Shown here: positions 1 to 34,186 of the stretch, piece after piece
Numbering within the stretch: position 1 is the stretch's first letter
How the letters are laid out: every line of letters begins with the position of its first letter
Source: Methylotenera sp.
GTDB lineage: Bacteria; Pseudomonadota; Gammaproteobacteria; Burkholderiales; Methylophilaceae
Length of the DNA: 35,934 nucleotides
Assembly: GCA_020622105.1 (NCBI GenBank)
Contig: JAHRYP010000025.1
Span: 1-35,934, forward strand
Direction of reading: 5' to 3'
Made by a program: the position numbers and the translations under genes
The notes under the pieces: model-generated
What the model was told of the DNA's origin: nothing
Seen by the model: only the letters and a program-made list of their open reading frames with translations
The model's database searches: none

Positions 1-2614
1 CTCGCAATCTTTTTGCTTGAGCGCTCTTGCCATCATTACCTGTTTGTAACCAGCCCGCTTCTTTCAAGACCTTACTTACTTGCTTGGAATCATAACCCCT
101 GCAAATATCATTCTTGTAGACCTCAGCCAAGCAGTAATAAAGCGTAGTAGAGCTGCCAGACACGTCAATACACTCGCTGAAACCTGCTCGATTATGGGTC
201 ACTCGCTCATCAGCCCTGTCCACTGGTGAGAACCTGCTCTCACCGTGCAACTCAAAGAATGCTTTTACCTGCGAAAGTATCGCGGTAATTTCCTGATTTC
301 CAGAACCACCTCGACTATCAAGCCAAGCATTAAAGCATCCCCTAGCCGCAGTCTCAGATTCGCCAGTTTGCCAGCCAGTTAAGCCAAATTTCGTTGCAAG
401 CTCCCCCGCCACAGCAACGAGTGCGAAGCGTTCGACGCCTCTTAATACTTGCCCACTGGCACCAACAGGTGAAATTTTTTCCATCATTTTTCTAACGGCA
501 AACTTTAATGATTCTGAGTCGTTGCCGTTGTCGAGGCTAGCACATAACATATCAAGGAATTCACGACCAACACGCCCATGATATTTAGTGCAATTATCTA
601 CAAGTAACTTTGAGAATGCAGCGCCACCATTGGTGTCATGGGTAGTATCAAACAAACCTAAGCCCTTGCCTGCATCTGCTGGAATGTCGATTAATCTTAT
701 TTCCTGCCCTGCCCTACTTCGCTGCCCTGCTACGAGCATGTGCTGTCCTAATGATATTTCACCAGCGCTTAAAAATAACAACCTCCACGACAAGCTGGCA
801 CGTGCAGCCCCTGACTTACCTGCACGGACTTTCCCAGTTCCATTTGCAAGCATATAGGCGATATTTCCAGCTTCTTTTGGGTCACATTGACTAAGCTCAT
901 CAAGAACAAGTAAGCCATCGTTATATAAAGCTGCCAAACCTTCCAATCCATTGCTAGTGGCTCGCCAACGCTGCAAATAATCTAGACCACCCCACACACT
1001 AGCAGCAACTCTCAAAGCCGTTGTTTTACCTGAACTTGAGTCACCCCTAAAGTGAAAACCGCCTGATTCCAAGCCTACTAGATTTAATAGCGGTGCCGCA
1101 AATGCACTTGATGCAGCAAAAACCAAACGCGAATTGTCAGTGCAAAGTTTTGCTACATTATCTTGCCATAGTTTTGATGGCCCTTTATTGGCATAAGCGT
1201 GTGAAAGCCCTCCCGTGCTTTGGAAAAGAACTTCATCTACACCAATAGTTGCATGAGGCAATATAAAGGACTTTTTATACCAGCCTGTTTTTTCAACCGC
1301 TGTAAAATGTTTAGTTACTATTGAGCTGGTTATATAGTCTGCCAATCTAGTTTTAGCTTTGCTATTAGCTGCAATTTCTAAACCCAAACGAAGCAACTCT
1401 GCGCGGTACTCTGCGCCCTCTGCTGCCATCATGGACATAGGCATCGCCCAATGGTGAATAAACCCGCTTCGATCTGGAAAAGCAAGGTAACGCCCCCAGT
1501 CTTGCTTATTTGCTCCCGAAGTGGTGCCTAACACTTCTAATTTTGAACAAACTAATTCAGGTGATAGCGGCTGACCTTCTTTATCAACCCCATTAAAGTA
1601 AACGCCATCATCCCTAACCTCAAACTTACTGGGTTTACTGTCATCGAACCAACCAAGCTTTTTCGCTTCGTAAAAAAGACTCGCTATGCTAATTGCACTG
1701 TCCTTATTACCAAAACTAGACCACGTATAGACTGCACTTGCTTCTTCAAACTTACTCGATGCTTTCGACCAGTCCAGCCATACTTGAATAAGGTCGGTGC
1801 TATGACTATGCAAACACATACCGATTCTTAACCAACTGTCTCTATCATCAATAAACTCAATAGGAAAAATTGCTAAAGCACTTTTAATCTTGTTTATATT
1901 GATATTACTTAGAGAGTTGTTATCATAAGTGGTGCTGGGGAGCATCTTCGAAGCAGGGTTAAGGTTTAAGCCTAAACCCTGCTTTATTTCTTCTACCGTG
2001 TAAGCTGTGTTTTCGTTAATTTCAATAATACGAGTTTGAAAATATAGATTATCAGCATATTTATGATGAAAATAACCAGGCAATCTCATTACCCTATCTT
2101 TGTTGTTGATTGCGGGGTCTGAACCTAACTTTACTGCTATGGCTTTTTGCAAAGGTGTAAAGTCATCTAAGCCACAATCACTTACTAACCAATATGCATG
2201 AAATTTTCCTGGTGAACTTTCTACTACAATGTGAGGTTTAATCGCACATGCAGCTATAGCTGGTAATCCTGTACCTACATTATCCCAGTCAGCGAACAAA
2301 GCTCTCACTCGAATAACATCTGAAGCCTTACGACCTCCATTTGTTTCGTTAATTACGACGAATACTCCGCTTTCACTCTTATTGATTAGCTCTAATTGTT
2401 TAGCATATTGGCTAAGACTGCCAACCAAGACATTGGGCTTTATACCTTCACGCTTAATTTTTGGCTCGGCACCTTCATTTGAACTGTTATTGCAGAATGT
2501 TTGAAAAACATGCTGTGCATCTTTTCCGCCTAATGACGTTAAAAATCTTTCTGCTTCAGTTAAATTAATTAAAAGAATTTCGGGTACGCTTGCTAGAGTT
2601 TTGAGATTAGTCAT
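1..2614 (-). CDS. Primase-helicase (AEP primase + PriCT-2 + DUF927), partial
   Basis: This looks like the replication protein of the integrated element: it would prime and unwind DNA after excision. It opens with ATG at 2614, eight bases inside the previous gene, preceded by a GGGGTGA ribosome binding site. 871 codons are visible with no stop, so the C-terminus lies beyond the left edge. The N-terminal part has archaeo-eukaryotic primase motifs: FADWDN (residues 107-112), a KFHAYW motif with His139, and a later RLPGYFHHK. A PriCT-2-like segment follows at about 240-300. A DUF927-type ATPase comes next, with Walker A GDSSSGKTT (524-532) and Walker B LLVLDEL (about 568-574). Such primases are typical of satellite-like and integrative elements. 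The family assignment is confident from motifs; exact replication mechanism is inferred. Confidence 0.88.
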   Translation of the reverse strand, partial: MTNLKTLASVPEILLINLTEAERFLTSLGGKDAQHVFQTFCNNSSNEGAEPKIKREGIKPNVLVGSLSQYAKQLELINKSESGVFVVINETNGGRKASDVIRVRALFADWDNVGTGLPAIAACAIKPHIVVESSPGKFHAYWLVSDCGLDDFTPLQKAIAVKLGSDPAINNKDRVMRLPGYFHHKYADNLYFQTRIIEINENTAYTVEEIKQGLGLNLNPASKMLPSTTYDNNSLSNININKIKSALAIFPIEFIDDRDSWLRIGMCLHSHSTDLIQVWLDWSKASSKFEEASAVYTWSSFGNKDSAISIASLFYEAKKLGWFDDSKPSKFEVRDDGVYFNGVDKEGQPLSPELVCSKLEVLGTTSGANKQDWGRYLAFPDRSGFIHHWAMPMSMMAAEGAEYRAELLRLGLEIAANSKAKTRLADYITSSIVTKHFTAVEKTGWYKKSFILPHATIGVDEVLFQSTGGLSHAYANKGPSKLWQDNVAKLCTDNSRLVFAASSAFAAPLLNLVGLESGGFHFRGDSSSGKTTALRVAASVWGGLDYLQRWRATSNGLEGLAALYNDGLLVLDELSQCDPKEAGNIAYMLANGTGKVRAGKSGAARASLSWRLLFLSAGEISLGQHMLVAGQRSRAGQEIRLIDIPADAGKGLGLFDTTHDTNGGAAFSKLLVDNCTKYHGRVGREFLDMLCASLDNGNDSESLKFAVRKMMEKISPVGASGQVLRGVERFALVAVAGELATKFGLTGWQTGESETAARGCFNAWLDSRGGSGNQEITAILSQVKAFFELHGESRFSPVDRADERVTHNRAGFSECIDVSGSSTTLYYCLAEVYKNDICRGYDSKQVSKVLKEAGWLQTGNDGKSAQAKRLR

Positions 2615-2810
2615 CGCAATCACCCCATGCGTAGTAATCTTCTATTAGAGCTTCTACAGCTAAAGAACACTTTAAGATTTTATTTTGCTCACGCTTACCG
2701 ACTATCCCACTAGTTAGCGCTGCTCCAAAAACCTTTCCTATACTCGACTTTGCTTCTAATAAATCGTAATAAGCGTTTCTCTTACGATTATCTTCAGGTG
2801 TGAGTGTCAT
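2607..2810 (-). CDS. Small hypothetical protein of the island (67 aa)
   Basis: I do not recognise this protein. The ATG at 2810 is preceded by a good AAGGAG site about 8 bases upstream; a longer version from a TTG at 2918 would overlap the regulator gene and is unlikely. It overlaps the primase start by 8 bases and begins one base after the stop of the AlpA-like gene. The three are therefore probably translated from one message. The sequence is charged and probably mostly helical, with an acidic C-terminal tail (DYYAWGDCDD). No catalytic motif or membrane segment is visible. Position between an AlpA-type regulator and a primase suggests a replication or excision accessory role, which is only a guess. 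Confidence 0.65.
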   Translation of the reverse strand: MTLTPEDNRKRNAYYDLLEAKSSIGKVFGAALTSGIVGKREQNKILKCSLAVEALIEDYYAWGDCDD

Positions 2811-2811
2811 G

Positions 2812-3060
2812 TTATTTAGCTCCTTGTAGAGAGTTAATAAATGAAACCACGTCGACTTCACGCCAAGCCACTGACTTTGCAGAAAGGCTGACTTGTTTGG
2901 GAAAGCGATTTTCTGCAATCATTTTGTAAAGAGTTGAGCGACCTACAGGATAGAGTTCTAAAACTTGCTTGATTCGCAAAAGCTTAGCTTCGTGCCGTAA
3001 TTGCACTTTATGAACTAGTTCAGGCGTTGATATTACTGATAGTAAATTTTCTTTATTCAT
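2812..3060 (-). CDS. AlpA-family transcriptional regulator
   Basis: This is a short DNA-binding protein of the AlpA/phage excisionase-like family. In related elements it activates the integrase or acts in excision. Starting at the ATG at 3060 it has 82 residues. The second half carries the typical winged-helix pattern: LLRIKQVLELYPVGRSTLYK, then RFPKQVSLSAKSVAWRE and a final VVSFINSL. An upstream in-frame ATG at 3111 would add 17 residues but has no ribosome binding site; 3060 has only a weak GAAAG. The gene is 2 bases downstream of the preceding ORF and 1 base upstream of the next. Likely target sites include the repeats before the integrase, but nothing in the sequence proves it. Confidence 0.85.
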   Translation of the reverse strand: MNKENLLSVISTPELVHKVQLRHEAKLLRIKQVLELYPVGRSTLYKMIAENRFPKQVSLSAKSVAWREVDVVSFINSLQGAK

Positions 3061-3062
3061 TT

Positions 3063-3305
3063 TTAAATGTCTTTCAGAAATCGGTGTTTTACACCGAAAA
3101 TAAGTAGACATGAAAAGATGCCCACATAACAATTCAACAAGCCGATATGGTCATGTTGAAGCTGAATGTGGGTAACGCATTTAGGGCATGCGTTTTTGCC
3201 AAAAGTGAGCACTTCTGCTGGCGTGGTATTTATTAATACACGCCCTGTACACGTTTGTGTGTAAAGAGAACTATTTAAAGACTCCCCACTTGTACGCTTC
3301 TCCAT
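3063..3305 (-). CDS. Small hypothetical protein with CPKC motif (80 aa)
   Basis: I do not recognise this. It begins with ATG at 3305, ends 2 bases before the AlpA-like start, and runs in the same direction, which argues that it is a real first gene of the operon. The middle has ACPKCVTHIQLQH, a Cys-pair plus His arrangement that could bind a metal. The C-terminal part (LLNCYVGIFSCLLIFGV) is hydrophobic and could be a single membrane segment. There is no obvious ribosome binding site before the ATG. It could equally be a chance open frame in the 5' leader of alpA. Confidence 0.35.
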   Translation of the reverse strand: MEKRTSGESLNSSLYTQTCTGRVLINTTPAEVLTFGKNACPKCVTHIQLQHDHIGLLNCYVGIFSCLLIFGVKHRFLKDI

Positions 3306-3693
3306 ACAAACAGAGTCTTAAAATAACTCAACTCTCTAAAAACTCACTTCGGCAATTCAGGTGACGGAGCTTATGTCCCAATACTGAAAGCCTGAAATTC
3401 CTAATTTTTAGACTGTCCAACTGAGTGGATTGTATAACTATGCCCTACTTGATGAGAATAGTGAAGCTCGAAATAGACACATAATTAAGTCAAAAATAAT
3501 AAAGTGCTTTCAAAGCCTGCCCTAGTATCAAACCTGAGACATAAAATAATTTAAAATATTTTCTTTAAGGCATTTAATGCCACTGATAAAACCTAAACTA
3601 AAGTCATTTTGTGGTATTTTTATGCCCAACTACTAACCTAAAAAATTTAGCGCTTGTATACACACAGAAGTTTTTAAAAATCAGGGCAATTTA
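3306..3693. other. AT-rich intergenic region
   Basis: This 388-base stretch separates the leftward alpA-primase operon from a rightward truncated ORF. It must hold promoters for both directions. I see no convincing -35/-10 pair, RNA gene, terminator hairpin or copy of the tRNA-Leu 3' end. It is clearly more AT-rich than the kinase block to its right. Confidence 0.5.
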
Positions 3694-3801
3694 ATGAGTC
3701 AAGAAACAATAACAAATTACATTCAAGATGGTGTTAAACAAGGTCATTTAGTCAAAGCGATACTTGTTGAATTAACGCTGGTGGTTGTTCATTTCCCATA
3801 G
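3694..3801 (+). pseudogene. Candidate truncated ORF at the edge of the signalling block
   Basis: An ATG at 3694 preceded by AGGGC opens a 35-codon frame (MSQETITNYIQDGVKQG...). It runs into the 3' end of the histidine kinase gene on the other strand and stops at 3799-3801. Base composition changes from AT-rich to GC-rich within it, between about 3745 and 3790. I read it as the 5' end of an island gene cut off when the kinase block arrived. The parent family is not recognised. It could also be a genuine small peptide or a chance frame. Confidence 0.4.
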
Positions 3802-5497
3802 ATGACATCGCCGCATCCAGTGCTTCCGCAAATTCATTGATCTTGATGGGCTTGGTGAGATAGCGGAGAAATCCAGCATCCAGTCCTTGATCGATGTCGC
3901 GCGTCATGGCATTCGCACTGAGAGCAATAATGGGAATATGTTTCGTTGCCGGGTCGTTACGCAGGAGCACCATCGCTTCTATCCCGCTGATGCCGGTCAG
4001 ATTGATGTCCATCAGGATAATGTCCGGTAGTTGTTCTTGCGCAATTTCGACGCCCCGGATTCCATCGCGGGCGCTTAACATGCGTATATGGGGGCGATCC
4101 TCAATTATTTGCTCGACCAGCATCAGGTTGGCCAGATTATCTTCAACATAGAGCAGGGTGTAGCTTGCCGCATCCCCCTTGTGTGGCGAAACAAATTCTT
4201 CGGGCAAACTAGCTTCTGCAGCAGGCTGTGATGCATCGTCCCGATCCAGTTCGATCCAGAATTCGCTGCCCACACCAACGGTACTTTCTACACCGATGGT
4301 GCCGCCCATCATTTCAACCAATTTTTTGCTGACTGCCAAGCCGATGCCGGTGCCTTCCTTAACCCCGATCTCTTGACCAAGACGGTTGAACGGCTGGAAT
4401 AGATGTGCCAGTTTTTCCGCAGATAATCCCGCACCGCTGTCTTTGACGCTGATGCGCAGGCGTCCCGCAGTATTCTCGGAACACTTCACTTCGACGGTTC
4501 CATTGTCGCTGTTGTATTTGATCGCATTGGAAAGCAGGTTGGCTATAACCTGCTTTAACTTGGTTTGATCGGCATGGACAAACCAAGTGCTGTCGAGCAG
4601 AAGAAAGTTTAAATGAATACCGTTTTCTTTTGCCTGCGGTTTGAACATGGCATGGCATTCGAACAACACCACGGACAGCGATACCGGCTCCATCGACATC
4701 GACGACTTGCCGGACTCGATCAAAGCAAGATCGAGAATCTCATTGATCAGATCCAGCAGGTACCATCCTGCTTTGAGAATTTGGTTCAGCCTTATCACCT
4801 GGACTGGTGTTGGTGATGGTGTGCCCGTTTCCAGCAATTGAGCGAAACCGAGAATGGCATTCAGGGGCGTACGCAGTTCGTGGCTCATATGGGAAAGAAA
4901 ATCCGATTTGGCGAGATTGGCCTTTTCCGCTGCAGTCTTGGAAGCCTCAAGTTCCGTGTTCCTTTCCCGCAACTGCTGGTCGAGCAGTTTATGCAGCGTC
5001 ACGTCTCGCGCAGTGGCAAAGACACCAAGGACGTTGCCCTTATTGTCTTTGTAGACGGAGGCATTGTAAAGTACGTCCATGATGCGGCCACTGACATGGC
5101 GGATGGCGAGCGGATAGTCGCGCACAAGGCCTTCGGAGAAAACTTTCTGATAACCTTCGCGCGCCTGAGTCGGATCAGTGAAGTAATCGGAGAAATCCGT
5201 GCCGATCAATTGTTCGCGCGGTACGCCGGTCGCCTGCACGGAAGCTTCATTCACGTCGGTGATCTTGCCTTCCGCACTGATGGTGACGAGCGGGTCGAGC
5301 GAGGCCTCGATCAGAGAGCGGGAATAGAAGTGTTGATCGCGCAACAGCTGTTCCAATGTAATCGTATCCATTGAACGCACCAAACCTGGGCCGTCTTTGC
5401 TCAGTACGGCATCGGCCTCCCCATGATTCAGTGCGTGCAGCATGCCCTCCGCCATTTTGAGACGTTCTTTCAACTCCGCGTATGTCGGTTCAGTCAT
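3752..5497 (-). CDS. Soluble PAS hybrid histidine kinase
   Basis: This is a cytoplasmic sensor kinase that passes phosphate from a histidine to its own receiver domain. The ATG at 5497 (581 aa) has an AAGAGG site and overlaps the kaiB-like stop by 8 bases; the longer frame begins with TTG at 5530 and is less likely. Order, numbered from 5497: coiled N-terminus, PAS (about 57-170), HisKA with SHELRTPLN (phospho-His about 206), HATPase with an N-box SNAIKYN (about 323-329), then DSGAG and GTGIGLA, and a C-terminal receiver with phospho-Asp in ILMDIN (about 497) and Lys in LTKPI (about 549). No membrane segment is visible, so the PAS probably senses an internal signal. It is the last gene of the KaiC/KaiB block. 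Confidence 0.92.
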   Translation of the reverse strand: MTEPTYAELKERLKMAEGMLHALNHGEADAVLSKDGPGLVRSMDTITLEQLLRDQHFYSRSLIEASLDPLVTISAEGKITDVNEASVQATGVPREQLIGTDFSDYFTDPTQAREGYQKVFSEGLVRDYPLAIRHVSGRIMDVLYNASVYKDNKGNVLGVFATARDVTLHKLLDQQLRERNTELEASKTAAEKANLAKSDFLSHMSHELRTPLNAILGFAQLLETGTPSPTPVQVIRLNQILKAGWYLLDLINEILDLALIESGKSSMSMEPVSLSVVLFECHAMFKPQAKENGIHLNFLLLDSTWFVHADQTKLKQVIANLLSNAIKYNSDNGTVEVKCSENTAGRLRISVKDSGAGLSAEKLAHLFQPFNRLGQEIGVKEGTGIGLAVSKKLVEMMGGTIGVESTVGVGSEFWIELDRDDASQPAAEASLPEEFVSPHKGDAASYTLLYVEDNLANLMLVEQIIEDRPHIRMLSARDGIRGVEIAQEQLPDIILMDINLTGISGIEAMVLLRNDPATKHIPIIALSANAMTRDIDQGLDAGFLRYLTKPIKINEFAEALDAAMSSMGNEQPPALIQQVSL

Positions 5498-5789
5498 TAG
5501 GGCTCGCCTCTTTGAGGCCAAGTGCGGCAAGAGTGCTTGCCGTGTCGGTCAGTGCGCCAAACAGGGTAACCGGGCGCGGAGCAATCAACATCACCGCCGG
5601 TGCAACCAAGATCATGGCTTGCAGCGCCGCCTCGAAATCCTGAAGCACATCAATGATCTCAATGTGATGGCAATCGGGCAGATAGGCGAGGCACAGTGCG
5701 CGCAAGTTTTGCTCGGCAAGGCGCGAATTTGATTCGTTGCCCGCGATAAACAGCCGAAAACGGTATTCGTCCGCGCTCATGTCAGGCAT
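5490..5789 (-). CDS. kaiB: KaiB-like protein
   Basis: KaiB family protein with a thioredoxin-like fold that in cyanobacteria binds KaiC and helps reset its phosphorylation. The sequence has the family pattern: a first strand FRLFIAGNESNS, the LPDCHHIEIIDVLQDFEAA segment, then ILVAPAVMLIAPRP with the conserved proline region, and a C-terminal LTDTAS...ALGL. Length (99 aa, or 96 from a second ATG at 5780) fits KaiB. The ATG at 5789 overlaps the kaiC stop by 8 bases, and the kinase start overlaps the end of this gene. Translational coupling and a shared role with KaiC are therefore likely. No KaiA is encoded, so the partner logic must differ from the cyanobacterial clock. Confidence 0.85.
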   Translation of the reverse strand: MPDMSADEYRFRLFIAGNESNSRLAEQNLRALCLAYLPDCHHIEIIDVLQDFEAALQAMILVAPAVMLIAPRPVTLFGALTDTASTLAALGLKEASPND

Positions 5790-7206
5790 CGTCTTTCAGG
5801 ATAGTGATTCCTTGATCGGAGATGTGAAAGTCGTGATTACAATGTGAATGCACCGAGCCGCGCGACTTCACCACCAGCAACTTGCGCTGCATGACGCCAG
5901 CGTCCGCCACCAATGTCAACTCAATGACCGTGTCGATGAGAGACGAGATACCGATGCCGCTGATTTCGTCCAAGTTGCTGAGGCCTTTTGTCTGGTTGGT
6001 GATGAGGATAATGATGCCCAATTCCTTGCAGGTATTGATCATGCGCATCAAGTATTCAAAGGCGGCCTGCTCGGTGCCCATACGCTTGCAGGCGGAGGCT
6101 GATTCAAGCACGACGCAACGCGGCTGCATCTGCTTGATGGCGTTGAAGGCGCGCACCAAATGTTGCTCCGCGCCCATCGCTTCCGGCATGGCCGTCAACA
6201 GGCGCAGCGAGCCATTGGCTATCATCGGATTCAGATCGGTTCCGGAACTGAGCATCGCCGACACTAGCGCCGCCTCCGACTCCTCGAAATTAAGGTATAA
6301 AACTTTTTCGGCTCTTAAACAGGCCGCATACGTGAATGTGCTGCACAGCGTGGTCTTGCCGGAGCCGGTGGAACCCGTGATCAGCACGCTGGATGCGCGC
6401 CGGAAGCCGCCGCCGATCAGATTATCGAGTACTGTCAGGCCTGTCGAGATTCGCTCTCCCAGCGCCTGATGTGACAAACCAATGTCCGAGATCGGCAGCA
6501 AGGTAATGCCGGGCGGCTCGATCACAAATGGATATTCGTTCGAGCCGAAGCCGGAGCCGCGATATTTAACGACGCGCAATCGGCGGGTGCTCAACTGGCC
6601 GAGCATGCGGTTGTCGAGATGGATGACGCAATCGGCCATGTAGTCGAGGAACTCATGATGCCGCTCATTAACCGTTTCGCGCGAAGCCTTGACCGTCAAC
6701 AGCGCAGTCACCTTTTGCTCCGACAGCCACTGATGCAGCGCCAACAGTTCGTTTTGCTCGCTGCGCTCATCGTTGATCAGGCGCATCAACACATCGATGG
6801 CGTCGATTGCCACGCACTTAGCACCCAACGCCTTGATCTTGTGGTTGAGGATGGCGAGAAAAGACTGTATACCGAATTCGCCGGTAACAATGGCTTTCGG
6901 GTCGATGCGCGCCTCGAACAGAAACAGCTTGCCGTTCTGCTCTAGCGGCACCAGATCCCAACCGAGGGTACTCGTGTTGGTGCGCAGATCAGCAGCGCGC
7001 TCTTCAAAGGAAATGAAAATTCCCGGCTCGCCATCGAGCGCGGCGCGATAGAGGAACTCAAGTCCGAACAGGCTCTTGCCGCTGCCGGGGCCACCGATGA
7101 TCAGCGTGGTGCGTCCCATTGGTAGGCCACCCTTGAGTATCATGTCCAGCCCCTCGATCTGAGTGGGACACTTGGGCAGGTTTGGAAATTGAATATCAAC
7201 CATCAT
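5782..7206 (-). CDS. kaiC: KaiC-like circadian-clock-type ATPase
   Basis: Double RecA-domain ATPase of the KaiC family (474 aa), expected to form a hexamer. The N-terminal half has Walker A GGPGSGKS (38-45) and the catalytic glutamate pair in SFEER (68-69). The C-terminal half has Walker A GSTGSGKT (278-285) and LNFEES (glutamates 308-309). In KaiC of Synechococcus the autophosphorylated pair is Ser431-Thr432 in an ISTITDT context; here the aligned segment is ISSLIDT with Ser421-Ser422, so phosphorylation is possible. The C-terminal tail is short and lacks an obvious KaiA-binding peptide. The start has two ATGs in a row after AGAGAAG. It follows the response regulator by 38 bases. Role inferred: a timing or signal-integration ATPase coupled to the flanking two-component proteins. 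Confidence 0.92.
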   Translation of the reverse strand: MMVDIQFPNLPKCPTQIEGLDMILKGGLPMGRTTLIIGGPGSGKSLFGLEFLYRAALDGEPGIFISFEERAADLRTNTSTLGWDLVPLEQNGKLFLFEARIDPKAIVTGEFGIQSFLAILNHKIKALGAKCVAIDAIDVLMRLINDERSEQNELLALHQWLSEQKVTALLTVKASRETVNERHHEFLDYMADCVIHLDNRMLGQLSTRRLRVVKYRGSGFGSNEYPFVIEPPGITLLPISDIGLSHQALGERISTGLTVLDNLIGGGFRRASSVLITGSTGSGKTTLCSTFTYAACLRAEKVLYLNFEESEAALVSAMLSSGTDLNPMIANGSLRLLTAMPEAMGAEQHLVRAFNAIKQMQPRCVVLESASACKRMGTEQAAFEYLMRMINTCKELGIIILITNQTKGLSNLDEISGIGISSLIDTVIELTLVADAGVMQRKLLVVKSRGSVHSHCNHDFHISDQGITILKDDA

Positions 7207-7244
7207 TCTTCTCTGATTTAAAATTGTTACGGTCCCTACGCGAT

Positions 7245-8069
7245 CTACGTAATGGTCGGAATTTCCACTCCGATACCACGATAACCAATGATGTAGCAGG
7301 ATTGGCTGAATATCGGCTCCCCGCTTACTCGAAAGGCCTGCTGTGAGCCATTGCTATTGGTCCGGTTGATGACGGTATCCAGGAATTTTTCTCGGGCGTC
7401 TATGGCACTCACCAAAAGTTTCCGTTCGGACTCATTCCAGCCACTGGAAAGACCGCTACTGGCATCTTCTGCCAATGAGTCGGTCCGAACTCCAAGCATT
7501 TCCAAAACCGGACCGAATACCTTGGTGAAATTCATGTCTTTGTCCTGCTCCCAGTGCAAATCGGAAGCGAGTTCGGTCAGACAGCGATATCGGTATTCGC
7601 TCGCCTCTAGTTCTGCGGTTCGTTCCCGTACTGTCTGCTCCAGTTCTTTGCTGTAATTCCCCAGCTTCTTGTAGAGCAATCGCACTTCCAGCATGTTGCG
7701 GATACGCGTCATGACTTCGACCAGATCGAAAGGCTTGCTGATGAAGTCCTTTGCTCCAGTTTGCAAGGCACGAAGCTTGTGTCCTGGTTCGGCAGTGATC
7801 GCTAGGACAGGTAGGTAACCGTCAACTGCATTCGTCCTAAGGGCTTCCATCACCTGGAATCCATCCATGTCCGGCATTTTCAGGTCGAGCAGGATCAGGT
7901 CATAGTGGTTACTGCGATGTAGCGCACATACCTCCTGCGGCTTTGTGGTCGAGGTGACACGGGTGTAGCCGGCTTCATGCAGTAGTTGTTCAAGCAGCAT
8001 GATATTGGATTCCTGGTCATCCACAATCAGGATGCTGGCGGTGAGAAGCTCTGACTCAGTAATGTTCAT
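7245..8069 (-). CDS. Response regulator, REC-coiled coil-PAS
   Basis: Receiver-domain protein of 274 residues with no DNA-binding output. The receiver (about 11-130) has acidic residues in LIVDDQE, phospho-Asp62 in LILLDLKMPDMDG and Lys112 in ISKPFD. A helical linker (about 131-160, ELEQTVRERTAELEASE) leads to a PAS-like domain (about 160-270). No HisKA or GGDEF follows, so the output must be protein-protein contact, possibly with the kinase or KaiC. The start has a strong GAGGGGAT site. It is the first gene of the four-gene block, and paired palindromes lie 75-165 bases upstream. A truncated hybrid kinase is an alternative reading, but the stop is clean and the next gene follows in order. 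Confidence 0.88.
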   Translation of the reverse strand: MNITESELLTASILIVDDQESNIMLLEQLLHEAGYTRVTSTTKPQEVCALHRSNHYDLILLDLKMPDMDGFQVMEALRTNAVDGYLPVLAITAEPGHKLRALQTGAKDFISKPFDLVEVMTRIRNMLEVRLLYKKLGNYSKELEQTVRERTAELEASEYRYRCLTELASDLHWEQDKDMNFTKVFGPVLEMLGVRTDSLAEDASSGLSSGWNESERKLLVSAIDAREKFLDTVINRTNSNGSQQAFRVSGEPIFSQSCYIIGYRGIGVEIPTIT

Positions 8070-8144: not shown

Positions 8145-8237
8145 TACTTTCTCTCACATAGTCCCTATGTGCGGTAGCGTACAGTCTATAAAATACTTTC
8201 TGTGACATATTCCATCTGTGCGTTACCGCACATAGGG
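8145..8237. promoter_or_regulatory. Two palindromes in repeated units upstream of the kai-like operon
   Basis: Two imperfect 38-base direct repeats start at 8145 and 8194 (29 of 38 bases agree by eye). Each contains a 16-base palindrome: TGTGCGGTAGCGTACA (8168-8183) and TGTGCGTTACCGCACA (8217-8232), centres 49 bases apart. In addition, 8163-8179 and 8221-8237 form a 17-base inverted repeat with one mismatch, and CACATAG/CTATGTG (8155-8161/8165-8171) is another perfect inverted pair. They lie just upstream of the response-regulator gene. I read them as binding sites for a dimeric regulator. They could also be ends of the inserted block. Confidence 0.55.
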
Positions 8238-8264: not shown

Positions 8265-8534
8265 AATGCATACGCCACGTACATTGAGTGCTATTTAAGA
8301 AGCTCTTTAGGTCAATTTCAATTTTTTCAAAAAAATAACGGTGGAATTATTCCAGAACTGAATCAGTCAGCACTTAAAGATATTTCAGTTATCGTGCCAC
8401 CTGTAGAAAGGCAAACCGAGATTGCCGCCCATGTGACAAAAATTAGGGTAAAAGCAAAACAGTTACAAGCAGAATCTGCCAATCTGTTAGCTAAAGCTAA
8501 AGCAGATATTGAGCGCATGATTTTGGGAAATTAA
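8265..8534 (+). pseudogene. C-terminal remnant of type I restriction specificity subunit (HsdS)
   Basis: Only the last ~90 codons of an HsdS-type gene are present. The frame shows YIECYLRSSLGQ, NNGGIIPELNQSALKDISVIVPP and then a long helix QTEIAAHVTKIRVKAKQLQAES...LLAKAKADIERMILGN. This is the typical end of a target-recognition domain followed by the conserved coiled-coil spacer. A full HsdS has about 400-450 residues. Upstream of about 8265 the frame runs through the palindromic repeats and has only a GTG at 8202 as start, so the 5' part is missing. No hsdM or hsdR is in the window. It is inferred to be a leftover from rearrangement in the island. Confidence 0.75.
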
Positions 8535-8677: not shown

Positions 8678-9919
8678 TTACGCTTGCTTAAAGGACAAAA
8701 CTTTTGCTCCGTCTCTGGCAATATCGAGTTGGTCACTCCACCACTGGGCTAATTCTCTACGCTCTTTATCGTATGTAGCTTCATTGTAGGTTTCTCTAAT
8801 TTGGTCTTTATCGCTATGTGATAAAAACGCCTCGATTACGTCTTTTCTGAATAACGCACTTTCATTTGCCTGTGTGCTGAAGAAATGACGACATCCATGA
8901 GGCACGATATGATAATCCGTAAATACAGCCCGAAAGCATTTGCGTATAGTTGCTTCAGAGAGTGGTTTGCTGGGGACTCTTGAGGCAAACAAGTAAGGGG
9001 TGTGCCGAGTGTATTCTCGCAGCTCTTTTAATGCGTTCAGCACCTGCTTTGATAACATCACAGTATGAGACTTAGACATGTACTTACGACTTTTAGCTTG
9101 CTCTAGTGGCAATGTCCATATTGCCTTATCTAAATCAAACTCAACCCATTTAGCACACCTAACTTCACTAGGCCTTTGTGCAAAATGCATATGCAAGTAA
9201 ACGCATGTTGAAACCTCAAGGCTTCCTGCATATTCGGAAAGGTTGCGTAATAACTTACCAGCATCTAGAGTACTTTTGAGGCGCGGGAATTTCTCTCCAA
9301 CGTGCTTGTGCAGTCGAACGTCTTTTAGTGGAATTGGATTTTCTGAGATTATGTTGTCGCTTAGAGCAAAGTCAAAGACAGACTTAATCCATCCGCGTGT
9401 CTTTTCCATAATCTCTAAAGCACCACGCTTTTGCATTACTAGTAAACATTTACGCACCAGCAAATTATCTATTTCGTTAATTGGAATATTGCCGAGCATG
9501 CCATAGACGTTAGCATTAAAGGTTTGCTTTATTTTCAGGAGCGTGGAAGGTGCTAAATCACGCGCTTTAACCTCTATCCAATCTTGTGCAACTGTTTTAA
9601 AAGTTTTGTCTGCATCATCTGCACTTTTAAGCTTAGCAAGCTTAGATGCCACTACTGGGTCTATATGCTCAATCTTTACCTGTTTCTGCATATTACGAGC
9701 CATCTCACGCGCATCACTTAGGGACAGCATAGGATAGACACCTAACTGAATAAGCTTTCGCTTACCGTTTAGCGTGGTACGGAGTTGAAAGTATTTACTA
9801 CCGTTTTCATGAGCAAGTAAAGCTAGTCCCTTTCCATCCCTCATGGGGTTTGGCTTATCACCATACTTAAATGCTTTGATTGTTAGGTCGTCTAGTAAGT
9901 CTGACTTTAGCTTTGCCAT
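8678..9919 (-). CDS. int: P4-type tyrosine integrase of the island
   Basis: Site-specific recombinase of 413 residues that catalyses insertion and excision at the tRNA-Leu gene. The N-terminal ~100 residues match the arm-binding domain of P4-like integrases (LTIKAF, DGKGLALL, LGVYPMLSLSDAR). The core-binding region follows at about 105-200. The catalytic domain has Arg249 in FAQRPSEVR, His341 and Arg344 in PHGCRHFFST, His368 in LSHSD and Tyr378 in RETYNE, with the typical tail RRELAQWWSDQLD. All catalytic residues are present, so the enzyme is probably active. It starts at ATG 9919, 164 bases from the tRNA, a usual position for an integrase next to its attachment site. There is no clear ribosome binding site; nested inverted repeats lie directly upstream. 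Confidence 0.95.
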   Translation of the reverse strand: MAKLKSDLLDDLTIKAFKYGDKPNPMRDGKGLALLAHENGSKYFQLRTTLNGKRKLIQLGVYPMLSLSDAREMARNMQKQVKIEHIDPVVASKLAKLKSADDADKTFKTVAQDWIEVKARDLAPSTLLKIKQTFNANVYGMLGNIPINEIDNLLVRKCLLVMQKRGALEIMEKTRGWIKSVFDFALSDNIISENPIPLKDVRLHKHVGEKFPRLKSTLDAGKLLRNLSEYAGSLEVSTCVYLHMHFAQRPSEVRCAKWVEFDLDKAIWTLPLEQAKSRKYMSKSHTVMLSKQVLNALKELREYTRHTPYLFASRVPSKPLSEATIRKCFRAVFTDYHIVPHGCRHFFSTQANESALFRKDVIEAFLSHSDKDQIRETYNEATYDKERRELAQWWSDQLDIARDGAKVLSFKQA

Positions 9920-10082: not shown

Positions 10083-10167
10083 TGGTGCCGACGGAGAGAC
10101 TCGAACTCTCACGACTTTCGTCACTACCCCCTCAAGATAGCGTGTCTACCAATTCCACCACGACGGC
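10083..10167 (-). tRNA. tRNA-Leu (anticodon GAG), island attachment site
   Basis: A class II tRNA cloverleaf of 85 bases including an encoded CCA (10083-10085). The 5' acceptor strand is GCCGTCG and the 3' strand CGTCGGC; they pair except for a U-U at position 5/68. The D arm holds GTGG...AATTGGTAGA, the anticodon stem is CTATC/GGTAG with loop TTGAGGG (anticodon GAG), the long variable arm closes as GAC/GTC, and the T arm is GAGAG-TTCGAGT-CTCTC. It follows secG by 29 bases in the same direction. The integrase lies directly downstream, so the 3' half is the probable attB/attL core. No second copy of the tRNA 3' end is visible in the island part of the window. Confidence 0.96.
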
Positions 10168-28208: not shown

Positions 28209-29990
28209 TTAACGTTTTTTGATGTAAAGGTCTGTAATCGTGCCTTCTTTCATCTCGGCTGCAAAACACACAGTTTCAGATAAAGTCGGATGCGCATGAA
28301 TCGTCAAACCCAAATCGTGTGCATCAGCACCCATCTCGATTGCCAATACAGCTTCTGCCAGTAACTCACCTGCATTCACACCGACGATACCAGCGCCAAT
28401 TACGCGATGTGTTTCTTTATCAAATATCAGTTTGGTTGCACCTTCGGTACGTGCAATAGAAAGTGCACGTCCGCTGGCAGCCCAGGGGAAACTGGCTTTT
28501 TCAATGGCGATGCCTTTGGCTTTAGCTTCAGTCTCTGTCACGCCTACCCAAGCCACTTCAGGATCGGTATAAGCAACTGACGGGATTACTGATGCGACAA
28601 ATTCAACTTTTTCACCGGCAATCACTTCAGCGGCTACTTTCGCTTCATGCGTAGCTTTATGCGCGAGCATCGGCTGGCCAACAATATCGCCAATCGCAAA
28701 TATATGCGGCACGTTGGTGCGCATTTGTTTATCTACAGCAATAAAGCCGTAATCATCAACAGCGACACCGGCATTCTCGGCACCGATATTTTTGCCGTTA
28801 GGACGACGGCCGATAGAAACCAGCACGCGGTCATAAATTTGCACCTCTTTAGGCGCGTCTGCGTTGCCGTTAACACCTTCAAATGTTACATGTATGCCAT
28901 CTTTTTTAGGCTCCATGCTCGCCACTTTTGTATTCAGCATAATCGCTTCAAAGCGTTTTTCCATACGCTTTTGCAGTGGTCGTACCAAATCACGGTCACA
29001 GCCTTGAATCAAGCCATCGGTAAATTCAACCACACTCACTTTTGTGCCGAGCGCATCGTAAACTGTACCCATTTCCAGGCCAATAATGCCGCCACCGATC
29101 ACCAGCATGCGTTTAGGAATATCAGCCAAGGCCAAGGCGCCGGTAGAATCCATAATACGCTCATCAGCTGCTACACCCGGGAACTTAGTCGCCTGTGAGC
29201 CAGCTGCAATGATTGCGTTTTCAAAACCTACTGTGGTCACTTTGCCATCAGCAGCAGTCACTGCGATCTGGTTAGGGCTAGTAAATTTACCTACACCTTG
29301 CACTACAGTCACGTTGCGCTGTTTTGCCATGGCTGCCAAACCACCGGTCAACTTGCCAACCACGTCATTGGCTTTCCAATTACGCAACTGGTCTAAATCG
29401 ATTTTTGGTGCGCCAAAGCTTAAGCCGTGATGGCTGGACTCTTCCGCCTCGGTAATCACTTTTGCCGTATGCAGCAATGCTTTTGATGGAATACAACCCA
29501 CATTGAGACAAACGCCACCCAAGGTTGCGTAGCGCTCAATGAGCACCACTTGCTTGCCCAAGTCTGCAGCACGGAAAGCTGCAGTGTAACCGCCAGGGCC
29601 GCTACCAAGCACGACCACTTGCGTATTGATATCACTATTGCCAACAGGCGCAGCGGCTGGTACTGGAACTGAGGCTGTAGCAGCTTGCGCCGCTGGTGCA
29701 GGACTAGCTGCAGGTGCTTCTGTTTTAGCTGGTGCAACTGCAACTGTGGCTTCCGCTTCTACCAATAAAATCAGCGTGCCTTTTGCGATTTTGTCGCCAA
29801 CTTTAACTTTAACTTCTTTTACCGTACCGGCATGAGAGGATGGAATATCCATAGATGCTTTGTCAGACTCAACCGTAATCAGGGAGTCTTCTTTAGCGAT
29901 CACATCGCCTGCCTTTACCAGCACTTCAATCACGTCAACGCTATCAAAGTTGCCGATATCAGGTACCAATACTTCAACTAAATTACTCAT
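28209..29990 (-). CDS. lpdA: Dihydrolipoyl dehydrogenase (E3) with N-terminal lipoyl domain
   Basis: Reoxidises the lipoyl group of pyruvate dehydrogenase, using FAD and NAD+. 593 residues: an N-terminal lipoyl domain with the lysine in ESDKAS (Lys44), then an Ala/Pro linker (about 82-118), then the flavoprotein with FAD motif GSGPGG (129-134), the redox disulfide Cys161/Cys166 in GGVCLNVGC, the NAD motif IGGGIIGLE, and the C-terminal HAHPTLSE with His567 and Glu572. The lipoyl domain fused to E3 is typical of some betaproteobacteria such as Neisseria. It lies downstream of aceF with a terminator between. Confidence 0.96.
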
Positions 29991-31516: not shown

Positions 31517-34186
31517 TTAAACTGTCGTTGGGTTTGGCTTGTTGGAATTTAAGTTGTATTTCTTAACCGCTTCCGCCACTGTAGCTGCCGGCAACTTGCC
31601 GTCATCACTTAACGCTTTCAATGCAGCAACCACAACATAGTATTTATTCACTTCAAAGAAGTCGCGTAATGCTTCACGGCTGTCTGAACGGCCAAAACCA
31701 TCTGTACCAAGTGCTACGAATCTATTTGGCACAAAGCGTTGAATCTGCTCTGCAAAGCTCTTCATATAGTCTGTTGATGCAATGACAGGACCTTTAGCAT
31801 CCTTCAGACACTGCGCAACATAACTGACTCTTTGCGGTTTTTCCGGATTCAACATGTTCCAACGATCGCAATCCAGACCTTCACGGCGCAACTCAGTGAA
31901 ACTTGGCGCACTCCACACATCGGCAGCAATACCCCAATCTTTTTCCAGTAGCTCAGCGGCAGCGATTACTTCACGCAGAATCACACCGCTGCCCATCAGC
32001 TGCACTTTCTCACCCTTAGCTTTAGATTTACTGAAGCTGTACATGCCTTTGAGGATACCTTCTGCGGAATCTTTAGGCATTTCAGGATGCGTGTAGTTTT
32101 CATTCATCAAGGTGATATAGAAATACACGTCTTCTTGATTTTGCACCATGCGGCGTAAACCATCCTGAATAATCACGGCCAACTCGTAAGCAAAGGTTGG
32201 GTCGTAAGAAACGCAATTCGGGATTGTTGCTGACATCAGATGGCTATGGCCATCTTCATGCTGCAGGCCTTCACCGTTCAATGTAGTACGGCCAGCCGTA
32301 GCACCCAACAGGAAGCCACGTGCGCGTGAGTCACCTGCCAACCAAGCCAAGTCTCCGATACGCTGGAAACCGAACATTGAGTAGTAAATATAGAACGGTA
32401 TCATCTGTGTACCGGTAACACTGTATGACGTCGCCGCAGCCAACCAGCTGGAGAATGCACCGGCCTCGTTAATACCTTCTTCCAGAATCTGGCCATCTTT
32501 AGATTCTTTATAGTACATCACCTGATCAGAATCCTGTGGCTCATAGAGCTGGCCCTGACTCGCATAAATGCCGAGCTGACGGAACATGCCTTCCATACCG
32601 AAAGTACGCGCTTCATCCGGTACGATAGGCACCACAAATTTACCCAGCTCTTTATCACGCACGAGTGTTGACAGAATACGCACAAACGCCATGGTGGTAG
32701 AAATCTCACGCTCACCGGTAGCGCCAAGCATATTCTCGAAAGCAGATAACTGCGGAACTTTGAGTTCGTTACCTTTACGGCGACGCTGTGGCACAAAACC
32801 ACCCATCGCAGCACGACGCTCAGCCATGTATTTCATTTCTGGTGAATCTTCAGCCGGCTTGTAGAAGCTCAGGCTTTCAACTTGTTCATCAGTCAACGGC
32901 AAGTCGAAGCGGTCACGGAATTTCTTGAGTGACTCGATATCCATGCTCTTTTGCTGATGGGTTGTGTTCTGACCTTCACCAGCCTCACCCATACCGTAAC
33001 CTTTAACCGTTTTGGCAAGAATTACTGTTGGCTGACCTTTATGATTCACCGCGGCATTGTACGCAGCAAATACTTTATGCGGATCATGGCCGCCACGGTT
33101 CAAGCGCCATATATCCTGATCACTCATGGCAGCTACCATGGCTTTTAATTCAGGGTATTTGCCAAAGAAGTGCTCACGCGTGTAAGCGCCACCTTTTTGT
33201 TTGAAGTTCTGATACTCACCGTCAACGCATTCTTCCATGCGTTTTTTGAGCAAGCCATCTTTATCCATTGCCAACAGTGGATCCCAGTAAGAACCCCAGA
33301 CCACTTTAAGTACATTCCAGCCGGAACCTCTGAAGTCTGATTCCAATTCCTGAATAATCTTGCCGTTACCGCGCACAGGTCCATCCAGGCGCTGCAAGTT
33401 ACAGTTGATCACAAAAATCAGGTTATCAAGTTTTTCACGTACCGCCAGTGAAATAGCGCCCAATGACTCCGGCTCATCCATCTCACCATCACCACAGAAT
33501 ACCCAAACCTTACGATCACTGGTATCAGCGATGCCGCGGTCATGCATGTATTTCAGGAAACGTGCCTGATAAATACCAGCCAATGGGCCCAAACCCATAG
33601 ATACAGTCGGGAACTGCCAGAAATCAGGCATTAACCAAGGGTGAGGATAGCTCGGCAAACCATTGCCGCCGGTTTCCTGACGGAAATTGTCCATTTGTTC
33701 TTCAGTAATACGGCCTTCCAGAAAGGCACGTGCGTAAACGCCAGGGGAAGAATGCCCTTGAAAGTAAACGCAATCACCACCAAAATTTTCATTCGGTGCG
33801 CGGAAAAAATAGTTAAATCCTGTGTCATAAAGCGTAGCAGCTGACTGGAAGCTGGCAATGTGGCCGCCTACACCCGGTGATTTCTCGTTAGCACGCAACA
33901 CCGTCATAATCGCATTCCAGCGCACCAGAGCACGTACGCGGCGCTCCATCTCAGGATCACCCGGCAACTTGGCCTGCAAATGCGTAGGGATGGTATTCAA
34001 ATAAGCGGTTGTAGCGTTATATGGGAGATTCGCACCGGTACGACGTGCTTTATCAATCATCGACTCTATTAAAAAGTGCGCGCGTTCTGGGCCTTCGTTT
34101 TCAATAACGGCCATCAGTGCATCAAGCCACTCTTGCGTTTCTTGATTATCAATATCTGGGCTGTTCAAATTTGTGTTCAATGACAT
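31517..34186 (-). CDS. aceE: Pyruvate dehydrogenase E1, homodimeric
   Basis: Thiamine-diphosphate enzyme that decarboxylates pyruvate and acetylates lipoyl-E2. 889 residues, the size of the homodimeric proteobacterial type. The TPP motif runs from GDGEMDEPES (about 232) to FVINCNLQRLDGP (about 258-270). The motif GGHIASFQSAATLY (107-120) and the central LGATAGRTTLNGEGLQHEDGHSH are diagnostic. It is first in the aceE-aceF-lpdA set; GGAG lies 11 bases before the ATG. Confidence 0.98.
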   Translation of the reverse strand: MSLNTNLNSPDIDNQETQEWLDALMAVIENEGPERAHFLIESMIDKARRTGANLPYNATTAYLNTIPTHLQAKLPGDPEMERRVRALVRWNAIMTVLRANEKSPGVGGHIASFQSAATLYDTGFNYFFRAPNENFGGDCVYFQGHSSPGVYARAFLEGRITEEQMDNFRQETGGNGLPSYPHPWLMPDFWQFPTVSMGLGPLAGIYQARFLKYMHDRGIADTSDRKVWVFCGDGEMDEPESLGAISLAVREKLDNLIFVINCNLQRLDGPVRGNGKIIQELESDFRGSGWNVLKVVWGSYWDPLLAMDKDGLLKKRMEECVDGEYQNFKQKGGAYTREHFFGKYPELKAMVAAMSDQDIWRLNRGGHDPHKVFAAYNAAVNHKGQPTVILAKTVKGYGMGEAGEGQNTTHQQKSMDIESLKKFRDRFDLPLTDEQVESLSFYKPAEDSPEMKYMAERRAAMGGFVPQRRRKGNELKVPQLSAFENMLGATGEREISTTMAFVRILSTLVRDKELGKFVVPIVPDEARTFGMEGMFRQLGIYASQGQLYEPQDSDQVMYYKESKDGQILEEGINEAGAFSSWLAAATSYSVTGTQMIPFYIYYSMFGFQRIGDLAWLAGDSRARGFLLGATAGRTTLNGEGLQHEDGHSHLMSATIPNCVSYDPTFAYELAVIIQDGLRRMVQNQEDVYFYITLMNENYTHPEMPKDSAEGILKGMYSFSKSKAKGEKVQLMGSGVILREVIAAAELLEKDWGIAADVWSAPSFTELRREGLDCDRWNMLNPEKPQRVSYVAQCLKDAKGPVIASTDYMKSFAEQIQRFVPNRFVALGTDGFGRSDSREALRDFFEVNKYYVVVAALKALSDDGKLPAATVAEAVKKYNLNSNKPNPTTV

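Follow-up and report, generated by a model that had tools for sequence, protein, structure and literature searches.

What Kai proteins do outside cyanobacteria, and how their signal is passed on, is an open question in the field. Here we describe a block of four leftward genes (positions 3752 to 8069) in a contig of Methylotenera sp. that was analysed over its full length of 35,934 nucleotides (GenBank assembly GCA_020622105.1, contig JAHRYP010000025.1; the window), in which genes for a receiver (REC) protein, a KaiC, a KaiB and a hybrid histidine kinase form an operon inside a transfer RNA (tRNA) island. Our preferred reading, held with moderate confidence, is that the block is a horizontally acquired KaiA-less KaiC-KaiB-kinase cassette with a REC-PAS gene added in front, which would serve as an ATP/ADP-sensing switch or hourglass that feeds the kinase and is under exopolysaccharide-type control.

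Among described systems, the KaiBC system on plasmid pB of Rhodobacter sphaeroides, according to the available part of its description (PMC10076222), shares with the window the kaiC-kaiB-kinase order, the absence of KaiA, an SS phosphosite pair and a short N-terminal module on the kinase. Its KaiC, however, which is 36% identical to that of the window, carries a C-terminal extension of ~104 amino acids (A-loop and coiled coil) that the window KaiC lacks, its kinase is of the HWE type, and no REC gene lies beside the plasmid genes, unlike in the window. Pararhizobium p3 has the order kaiC-kaiB-kaiB-'response regulator', comparable to the KaiC-KaiB-kinase trio of the window. The proto-circadian kaiC-kaiB-PAS/histidine kinase operon of Rhodopseudomonas palustris, set beside the window by its description only, is likewise made of three genes with a PAS kinase, and the available part of that description contains no REC-PAS gene (PMC4794148). 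The 'first kaiC context' of the Ramlibacter paper resembles the window in that kaiC-kaiB is followed by a kinase or a GGDEF/EAL protein and in its ST/SS sites, but the part of that account available includes no tail-less KaiC clade, hsd replacement or operator link such as are seen for the window (PMC3164672). With the cyanobacterial KaiABC-SasA/CikA system the window has in common the KaiC and KaiB families and a kinase partner; in contrast to it, the window has no KaiA, its KaiC stops before the C-terminal tail, and its kinase has no KaiB-like domain by Pfam. As the published contexts and the R. sphaeroides and Pararhizobium plasmids show the same order, the KaiC-KaiB-kinase architecture itself is already known. 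The window cassette, mobile and KaiA-less, is a new form of this architecture: its KaiC has no tail, its KaiB is divergent, a REC-PAS gene has been added, and it is predicted to share Crp/Fnr-type control with exopolysaccharide genes.

The operon and its proteins

The block comprises the following features:

7245..8069, minus strand: REC-PAS response regulator, 274 amino acids, no DNA-binding or enzymatic output domain found
5782..7206, minus strand: KaiC double-domain ATPase, 474 amino acids, phosphosite pair S421/S422, without C-terminal extension
5490..5789, minus strand: divergent KaiB, 99 amino acids
3752..5497, minus strand: PAS-HisKA-HATPase-REC hybrid kinase, 581 amino acids from its ATG, no membrane-like stretch
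5339..5497, minus strand: kinase N-terminal module, the first 53 codons of the kinase

All four reading frames are open. The KaiC and KaiB genes share 8 nucleotides at 5782-5789 and the KaiB and kinase genes 8 nucleotides at 5490-5497 (counted with the kinase ATG at 5497), and the gap from the REC gene to the KaiC gene is 38 nucleotides. An earlier reading made from the sequence only had described four leftward genes with two 8-base overlaps and a soluble hybrid kinase, and both descriptions were borne out: every open reading frame (ORF) lies at its minus-strand position, and the 19-residue hydropathy maximum of the kinase is 1.63, which indicates no membrane-like stretch. By Pfam the kinase consists of PAS, HisKA, HATPase_c and Response_reg domains. 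The phosphotransfer residues are intact in both signalling proteins (D62 of the REC protein; H206 and D497 of the kinase). For the REC-PAS protein the sequence-only reading stands in part: the receiver matched Response_reg with 94.3 bits, and the C-terminus gave no Pfam PAS match (DUF4983 remained below its cut-off), so that the PAS assignment rests on a likeness of 29% over 126 amino acids to a PAS-containing segment of another Kai-locus protein, with an expectation value (E) of 3e-15 that comes from one single pairwise comparison. The AlphaFold model of this protein (single sequence; predicted local distance difference test score, pLDDT, 38.4) is unusable. KaiA (PF07688) is absent from the host genome (2.5 Mb, 53 contigs, 96% complete; the window is its contig G000:C32), as the sequence-only reading had supposed from the block, and the control search was positive only in Synechococcus.

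The KaiC protein matched the KaiC ATPase family PF06745 with 332 bits in two stretches, the tandem RecA-like CI and CII domains, which agrees with its earlier assignment to this family. It passed the NCBIfam KaiC equivalog NF006799/PRK09302 (467.8 bits, cut-off 408) and failed the stricter circ_KaiC equivalog TIGR02655 (282.4 bits, cut-off 546.25). Walker A and FEE motifs can be read in both halves, together with S421/S422, which align with S413/S414 of R. sphaeroides KaiC, the adjacent phosphorylatable CII residues of the best solved match (8DB3, E=1.7e-89). Across the 23 KaiC rows of the KaiB-associated clade this pair is SS in 18, ST in 4 and SK in 1. The number of residues past the aligned end in the same rows is 0-4 in the four-member clade of the window and its close kin, 6-8 in 3 rows, 32-34 in 3 and 94-117 in 13; short ends (0-34 residues) thus occur in 10 of 23, the window included. 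In the KaiC tree, the window and three close kin formed one group (100/100), separated from the other KaiCs by a long branch.

The KaiB protein passed PF07689 with 31.6 bits (gathering cut-off 27), which upheld in a profile search the family membership proposed for it, though the NCBIfam KaiB equivalogs were failed; KaiB structures in the Protein Data Bank gave matches with E from 5e-7 to 1e-3. In the KaiB tree, the window and its close kin lie nearest to a group from the betaproteobacterial loci L045, L084, L090, L092 and L093 (9 rows, 100/100). The KaiCs of these five loci carry tails of 99-105 amino acids, and the gene after KaiB encodes a GGDEF-EAL protein in four of them. Locus L045 (genome G411) has a KaiC 37% identical to that of the window, a PAS hybrid kinase 55% like the window kinase over 525 amino acids and a receiver with 65% likeness to the window REC over 153 amino acids. 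In its two receiver proteins at 4504-5568 and 5691-6812, the receivers (65% and 61% likeness to the REC of the window) are joined to an HD-GYP and to a guanylate-cyclase domain, and for this reason the window REC-PAS protein resembles a receiver module that is missing the enzyme it usually comes with.

Relatives and the conserved unit

Close kin were sought by a pattern-based scan of GTDB genome contigs with a two-KaiC alignment, a scan that may miss kin. Three were found: L047 from 'Candidatus Gallionella acididurans' (KaiC 87%), L048 from an uncultured proteobacterium (contig of G216:C103) and L049 from a betaproteobacterial metagenome-assembled genome (KaiC 76% each). All three keep KaiC, KaiB and the kinase together, and the REC gene is missing from all three; by tblastn the window REC matched nothing in L047 or L049, and in L044 (the G216 stretch) its only matches were to kinases, in their receiver or PAS segments. 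The conserved unit, judged from these gene contents, is therefore the KaiC-KaiB-kinase trio and not the four-gene block. The earlier suggestion of a mobile four-gene block is not supported by this; homologues of the genes do co-occur elsewhere. The gene order had also been thought unusual, which holds for the REC-PAS gene but not for the kaiC-kaiB-kinase order and the absence of KaiA, both already published outside cyanobacteria, again as far as the available text of those reports goes (PMC3164672, PMC4794148, PMC5520375). The kin kinases are without the PAS domain of the window kinase, and that of L049 is also without the receiver. In two more distant loci a receiver-bearing gene does stand directly upstream of KaiC: a REC-guanylate cyclase gene in L045 and a hybrid kinase gene in L082. 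Compared with the kin, dN/dS (the ratio of nonsynonymous to synonymous rates) of KaiC, KaiB and kinase is 0.11-0.25, with dS at 1.4-2.2 and thus near saturation for L048 and L049. In L047 an IS200-type (Y1_Tnp) transposase gene is found upstream of kaiC (2965-3396).

A KaiC match at E<=1e-30 (weaker matches being left out) was present in 28 of 399 genomes of the order, the KaiB family in 6 of 150 genomes of relatives, each count including the host itself. The same-genus genome G017 (L046) has a different KaiC-KaiB pair, related only at a distance, with a PAS-GGDEF-EAL protein after it. Viral contigs scanned with the KaiC alignment gave 105 pattern matches with no relative among them, and the phage records searched gave no match. 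In the surveyed readable loci the gene after KaiB encodes a kinase, a GGDEF-EAL or an HD-GYP protein, and a kinase or GGDEF/EAL gene directly after kaiC-kaiB is found in the window and in 3 of 3 close kin.

A shared module at the kinase N-terminus

In two of the kin, likeness to the window kinase is higher over the first ~45 residues (48% and 51%) than over the catalytic part (35% and 36%); for L047 the values are 57% for the N-terminal segment and 64% for the catalytic part. A hidden Markov model (HMM) was built from the four N-termini of the window and its close kin, and it matched the product of the gene that follows kaiB in eight more loci, those of R. sphaeroides and Pararhizobium among them. 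One of the matched proteins is of the GGDEF-EAL type, and most of the matches are weak (E 1e-6 to 0.05). Module-bearing output proteins are found in L046, L081-L083, L086, L089, L095 and L096. Of the KaiB-adjacent signalling output proteins 8 of 16 carry the module, compared with 0 of the 27 remaining signalling proteins (p=8.9e-5); the seed kin L044, L047 and L049 were dropped from this count, and the window is absent from the underlying table. One module match, at L080 2904-4814, fell outside the signalling ORFs and does not enter the count; the kinase frame at L080 1804-3357, which may be the remainder of that protein, stands among the non-adjacent controls. The G231 output protein matched in the short locus L029 (E 0.001) and not in the longer L093, and was counted as without the module. 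Sequences resembling GEVDALVV also stand ahead of PAS domains in other kinases.

The N-terminus of the R. sphaeroides kinase, used as a tblastn query against 72,556 plasmid records, matched 14, with kaiC just upstream on the same strand in 13; 9 of these 13 are near-identical Cereibacter records, which reduces the independent cases to five. The same records gave nothing for the N-terminus of the window kinase and one record only for that of L082.

An island-borne block in a broken hsdM-hsdS locus

The following features surround the block:

8678..9919, minus strand: P4-type tyrosine integrase
10083..10167, minus strand: tRNA-Leu(GAG), presumed attachment site
2812..3132, minus strand: AlpA-family regulator
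2..2623, minus strand: RepB/PriCT primase with DUF927, replication protein, running off the contig
3694..3745, plus strand: broken hsdM, first 17 codons, left border of the inserted block
8292..8534, plus strand: broken hsdS 3' end, right border of the inserted block

Three features of a P4-type island are present, an integrase beside a tRNA gene, AlpA and a replication protein, which supports the tRNA-island location given by the sequence-only reading. A search for a second copy of the attachment site found only the tRNA itself in the window, where the contig ends inside the island, and other tRNA-like and short matches in the whole genome. The guanine-cytosine (GC) content of the block is 53.4%, compared with 40.8% to one side, 39.8% to the other and 46.6% in the chromosomal part of the window; the block is foreign in composition and island-borne.

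In the hsdM remnant 16 of 17 residues match the relative G020, and the hsdS remnant (Methylase_S, 24.4 bits, cut-off 22) is like that relative in 34 of 52 residues. With the exception of the host itself, G020, of the same genus, was the only one of 150 searched genomes in which both flanks were matched. The Kai block appears to replace the body of a restriction-modification hsdM-hsdS locus, because in G020 (L063) the flanks are the two ends of one intact hsdM-hsdS pair (718 and 477 amino acids). A chimeric assembly is unlikely, as both borders belong to one locus and keep its gene order and orientation.

Putative Crp/Fnr-type operators

Two palindromes, both exact instances of TGTNCGNTANCGNACA, lie 99 and 148 bp upstream of the operon, between it and the hsdS remnant:

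8168..8183, no strand assigned: palindrome TGTGCGGTAGCGTACA, putative Crp/Fnr-type operator, 99 bp upstream of the REC ATG
8217..8232, no strand assigned: second palindrome TGTGCGTTACCGCACA, putative Crp/Fnr-type operator, 49 bp from the first

Allowing at most one mismatch, TGTGCGNTANCGNACA had 28 strand-counted matches (17 places) in the host genome, whereas the reversed control had 0. Nine of the 17 places are on contig C9, which carries EpsD/EpsE exopolysaccharide genes and Crp-like regulators (a Crp/Fnr-type protein is encoded there at 32916-33713), and others are near a GGDEF gene and a RelA/SpoT-family gene. The site-bearing stretches of C9 are L070-L073; further ones are L074-L079. In ten stretches chosen for holding sites, 15 of 18 sites found with a looser pattern and one mismatch were intergenic (with respect to ORFs of >=100 amino acids). 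A pair of sites between epsD and a Crp-like gene has a spacing of 49 bp, equal to that of the window pair.

Regulator homologues were counted at E<=1e-20 and the motif as exact TGTNCGNTANCGNACA in 46 genomes, the host included, which itself has seven such homologues. The motif was present in 16, a homologue in 18 and both in 15 (exceptions: homologue without motif in 3, motif without homologue in 1; Fisher p=2.3e-8, a value that overstates the evidence, since the compared genomes share ancestry). The reversed control pattern occurred in 8 of the 46 genomes and showed no association with the regulator (p=1.0). In G000, G103, G016 and G231, sites lie ~110-195 bp before regulator genes, as measured to the start of the ORF or match. 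Near kai genes, 21 KaiC loci held 9 sites when 0.25 were expected from dinucleotide shuffles. Two of the 9 are those of the window; L089 has two, 158 and 182 bp before the KaiC ORF; L092 has one 168 bp before a KaiC-matching stretch, but inside an open frame; L049 has one ~590 bp before KaiC; L045 has one before the first kinase gene; L081 has one 1.4 kb before KaiC, and a regulator homologue (2e-104) adjoins its Kai operon; and the single site of L084 is inside an ORF. Among the papers listed in literature searches on KaiC, genomic islands, Crp and exopolysaccharide, the titles and opening parts of the abstracts contained no mention of a link between such palindromes and kai operons. We infer that a Crp/Fnr-type regulator binds the upstream palindromes, and the operon is apparently wired to the switch that controls the exopolysaccharide (slime-layer) genes of the host. 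The sequence-only reading had called the output of the block unknown; the block contains no DNA-binding output, and the putative operators give a partial answer on the input side.

Proposed mechanism and alternatives

In the preferred reading, KaiC would form hexamers, autophosphorylate on S421/S422 and hydrolyse ATP slowly, and its state, by analogy with R. sphaeroides KaiC, may report the ATP/ADP ratio together with elapsed time. KaiB would bind KaiC and alter its ATPase, and the kinase, whose gene overlaps kaiB, may read the KaiBC complex via its short N-terminal module and pass phosphate from H206 to its own receiver, to the REC-PAS protein or to both. A Crp/Fnr-type regulator is predicted to switch the operon at the two palindromes observed upstream. 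The operator type equals that marking host exopolysaccharide and cyclic di-GMP genes, and the most likely role of the cassette would be to match the behaviour of surface polysaccharide or biofilm to energy state, working as a switch or an hourglass and not as a free-running clock. A wider proposal, which we offer tentatively and hold to be distinctly less probable, is that in Betaproteobacteria the KaiBC-kinase cassettes belong, as modules for energy or time, to an exopolysaccharide regulon of the Crp/Fnr type. Many outputs of these cassettes (histidine kinases and at least one GGDEF-EAL enzyme) would share an N-terminal KaiBC docking module that lets the Kai input plug into different outputs, and the window cassette would be a stripped-down mobile form with a tail-less KaiC and possibly a pre-switched KaiB. 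The locus and its kin offer a predicted operator and regulator for kai genes, a candidate KaiBC docking site in the short kinase segment and, in the tail-less KaiC, a natural test of whether the A-loop is necessary.

Several observations weigh against the preferred reading. With 0 residues past the aligned end, the window KaiC is without the C-terminal extension that holds the A-loop in studied KaiCs. The available part of PMC10076222 describes the extended A-loop of the R. sphaeroides protein as pivotal to both autophosphorylation and nucleotide exchange, so tail-less KaiCs have to work without it. Both NCBIfam circadian KaiB equivalogs were failed (30.8 of 110 bits and 29.5 of 145.3 bits), and KaiB has L and T at the basic positions K66/R73, so that KaiC binding is not assured. 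The module is missing from 8 of the 16 KaiB-adjacent outputs, and the four-gene block contains no DNA-binding output. Besides the shared ancestry of the compared genomes, the operators are open to the objection that among the close kin a palindrome is found near kaiC in L049 only, with none in L047 or the G216 locus and no exact site anywhere in the G216 genome. In the 17 KaiC genomes motif and regulator occurred together in 9, the regulator only in 5, neither in 3 and the motif only in 0, a weak association (p=0.08), and no promoter-like match was found at the operators.

The residues of KaiB bear on two rivals. It is improbable that the cassette is a true KaiBC timer of the sort proposed for R. 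palustris, which would foresee day and night by acting as a damped oscillator or as a 24-h hourglass: the KaiC phosphosite pair, KaiB and kinase are all present, but the KaiC extension is absent. The three slow-isomerising prolines (P64, P71 and P73) are kept in the window KaiB and in L047, though the third is Ser in L048 and L049; their isomerisation sets slow fold switching in R. sphaeroides KaiB, and they are kept in 474 of 487 KaiBs, according to the part of PMC11551320 available. At the equivalents of K57, G88 and D90, positions that have been suggested to govern fold switching, the window KaiB has M/A/G instead of K/G/D, which speaks against the timer. The last two of these substitutions speak for a permanently thioredoxin-like, KaiC-binding KaiB that acts as a fixed adaptor and makes the cassette a fast energy switch, not a timer, which we consider unlikely but less so than the timer. 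All 4 KaiBs of the subfamily and the 5 sister KaiBs have Ala at the G88 equivalent and Gly or Ala at the D90 position, and the available part of PMC12618002 proposes that G88A and D90R stabilise Synechococcus elongatus KaiB in its switched fold. The fixed adaptor, however, has to contend with the three remaining prolines, with Ala at the same position in some other KaiBs (second copies in L080, L086 and L096) and with R. sphaeroides KaiB, which has both folds and carries N and K at the G88 and D90 positions; the AlphaFold model (four KaiBs in the alignment, pLDDT 49.6) is too poor to interpret. The fold-state signals of the sequence, prolines on one side and M/A/G residues on the other, conflict.

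Two further rivals concern whether the block works in its host at all and in what role. That it is decaying cargo, stranded in the island and non-functional, is quite improbable in our judgement: its foreign GC content, a REC-PAS protein without output domain and the rarity of the KaiB family would fit, but the open frames, intact phosphotransfer residues and 8-nucleotide overlaps would not, nor would the low dN/dS, which was measured against the kin and so speaks mainly for the lineage before arrival. An anti-phage module in the defence-cargo slot of a satellite-like island would fit the position of the block where hsdM-hsdS stood, but the kin sit in other contexts, and we give this rival hardly any weight. 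A defence role found no support in PADLOC, which returned only weak or partial matches to the four proteins, the best being mad8 for KaiC (61.5 bits, best stretch at profile positions 5-70 of 314).

Elsewhere in the window, a gene at 28209-29990 encodes a dihydrolipoyl dehydrogenase of 593 amino acids whose extended N-terminus matches the model of a lipoyl-bearing acetyltransferase.

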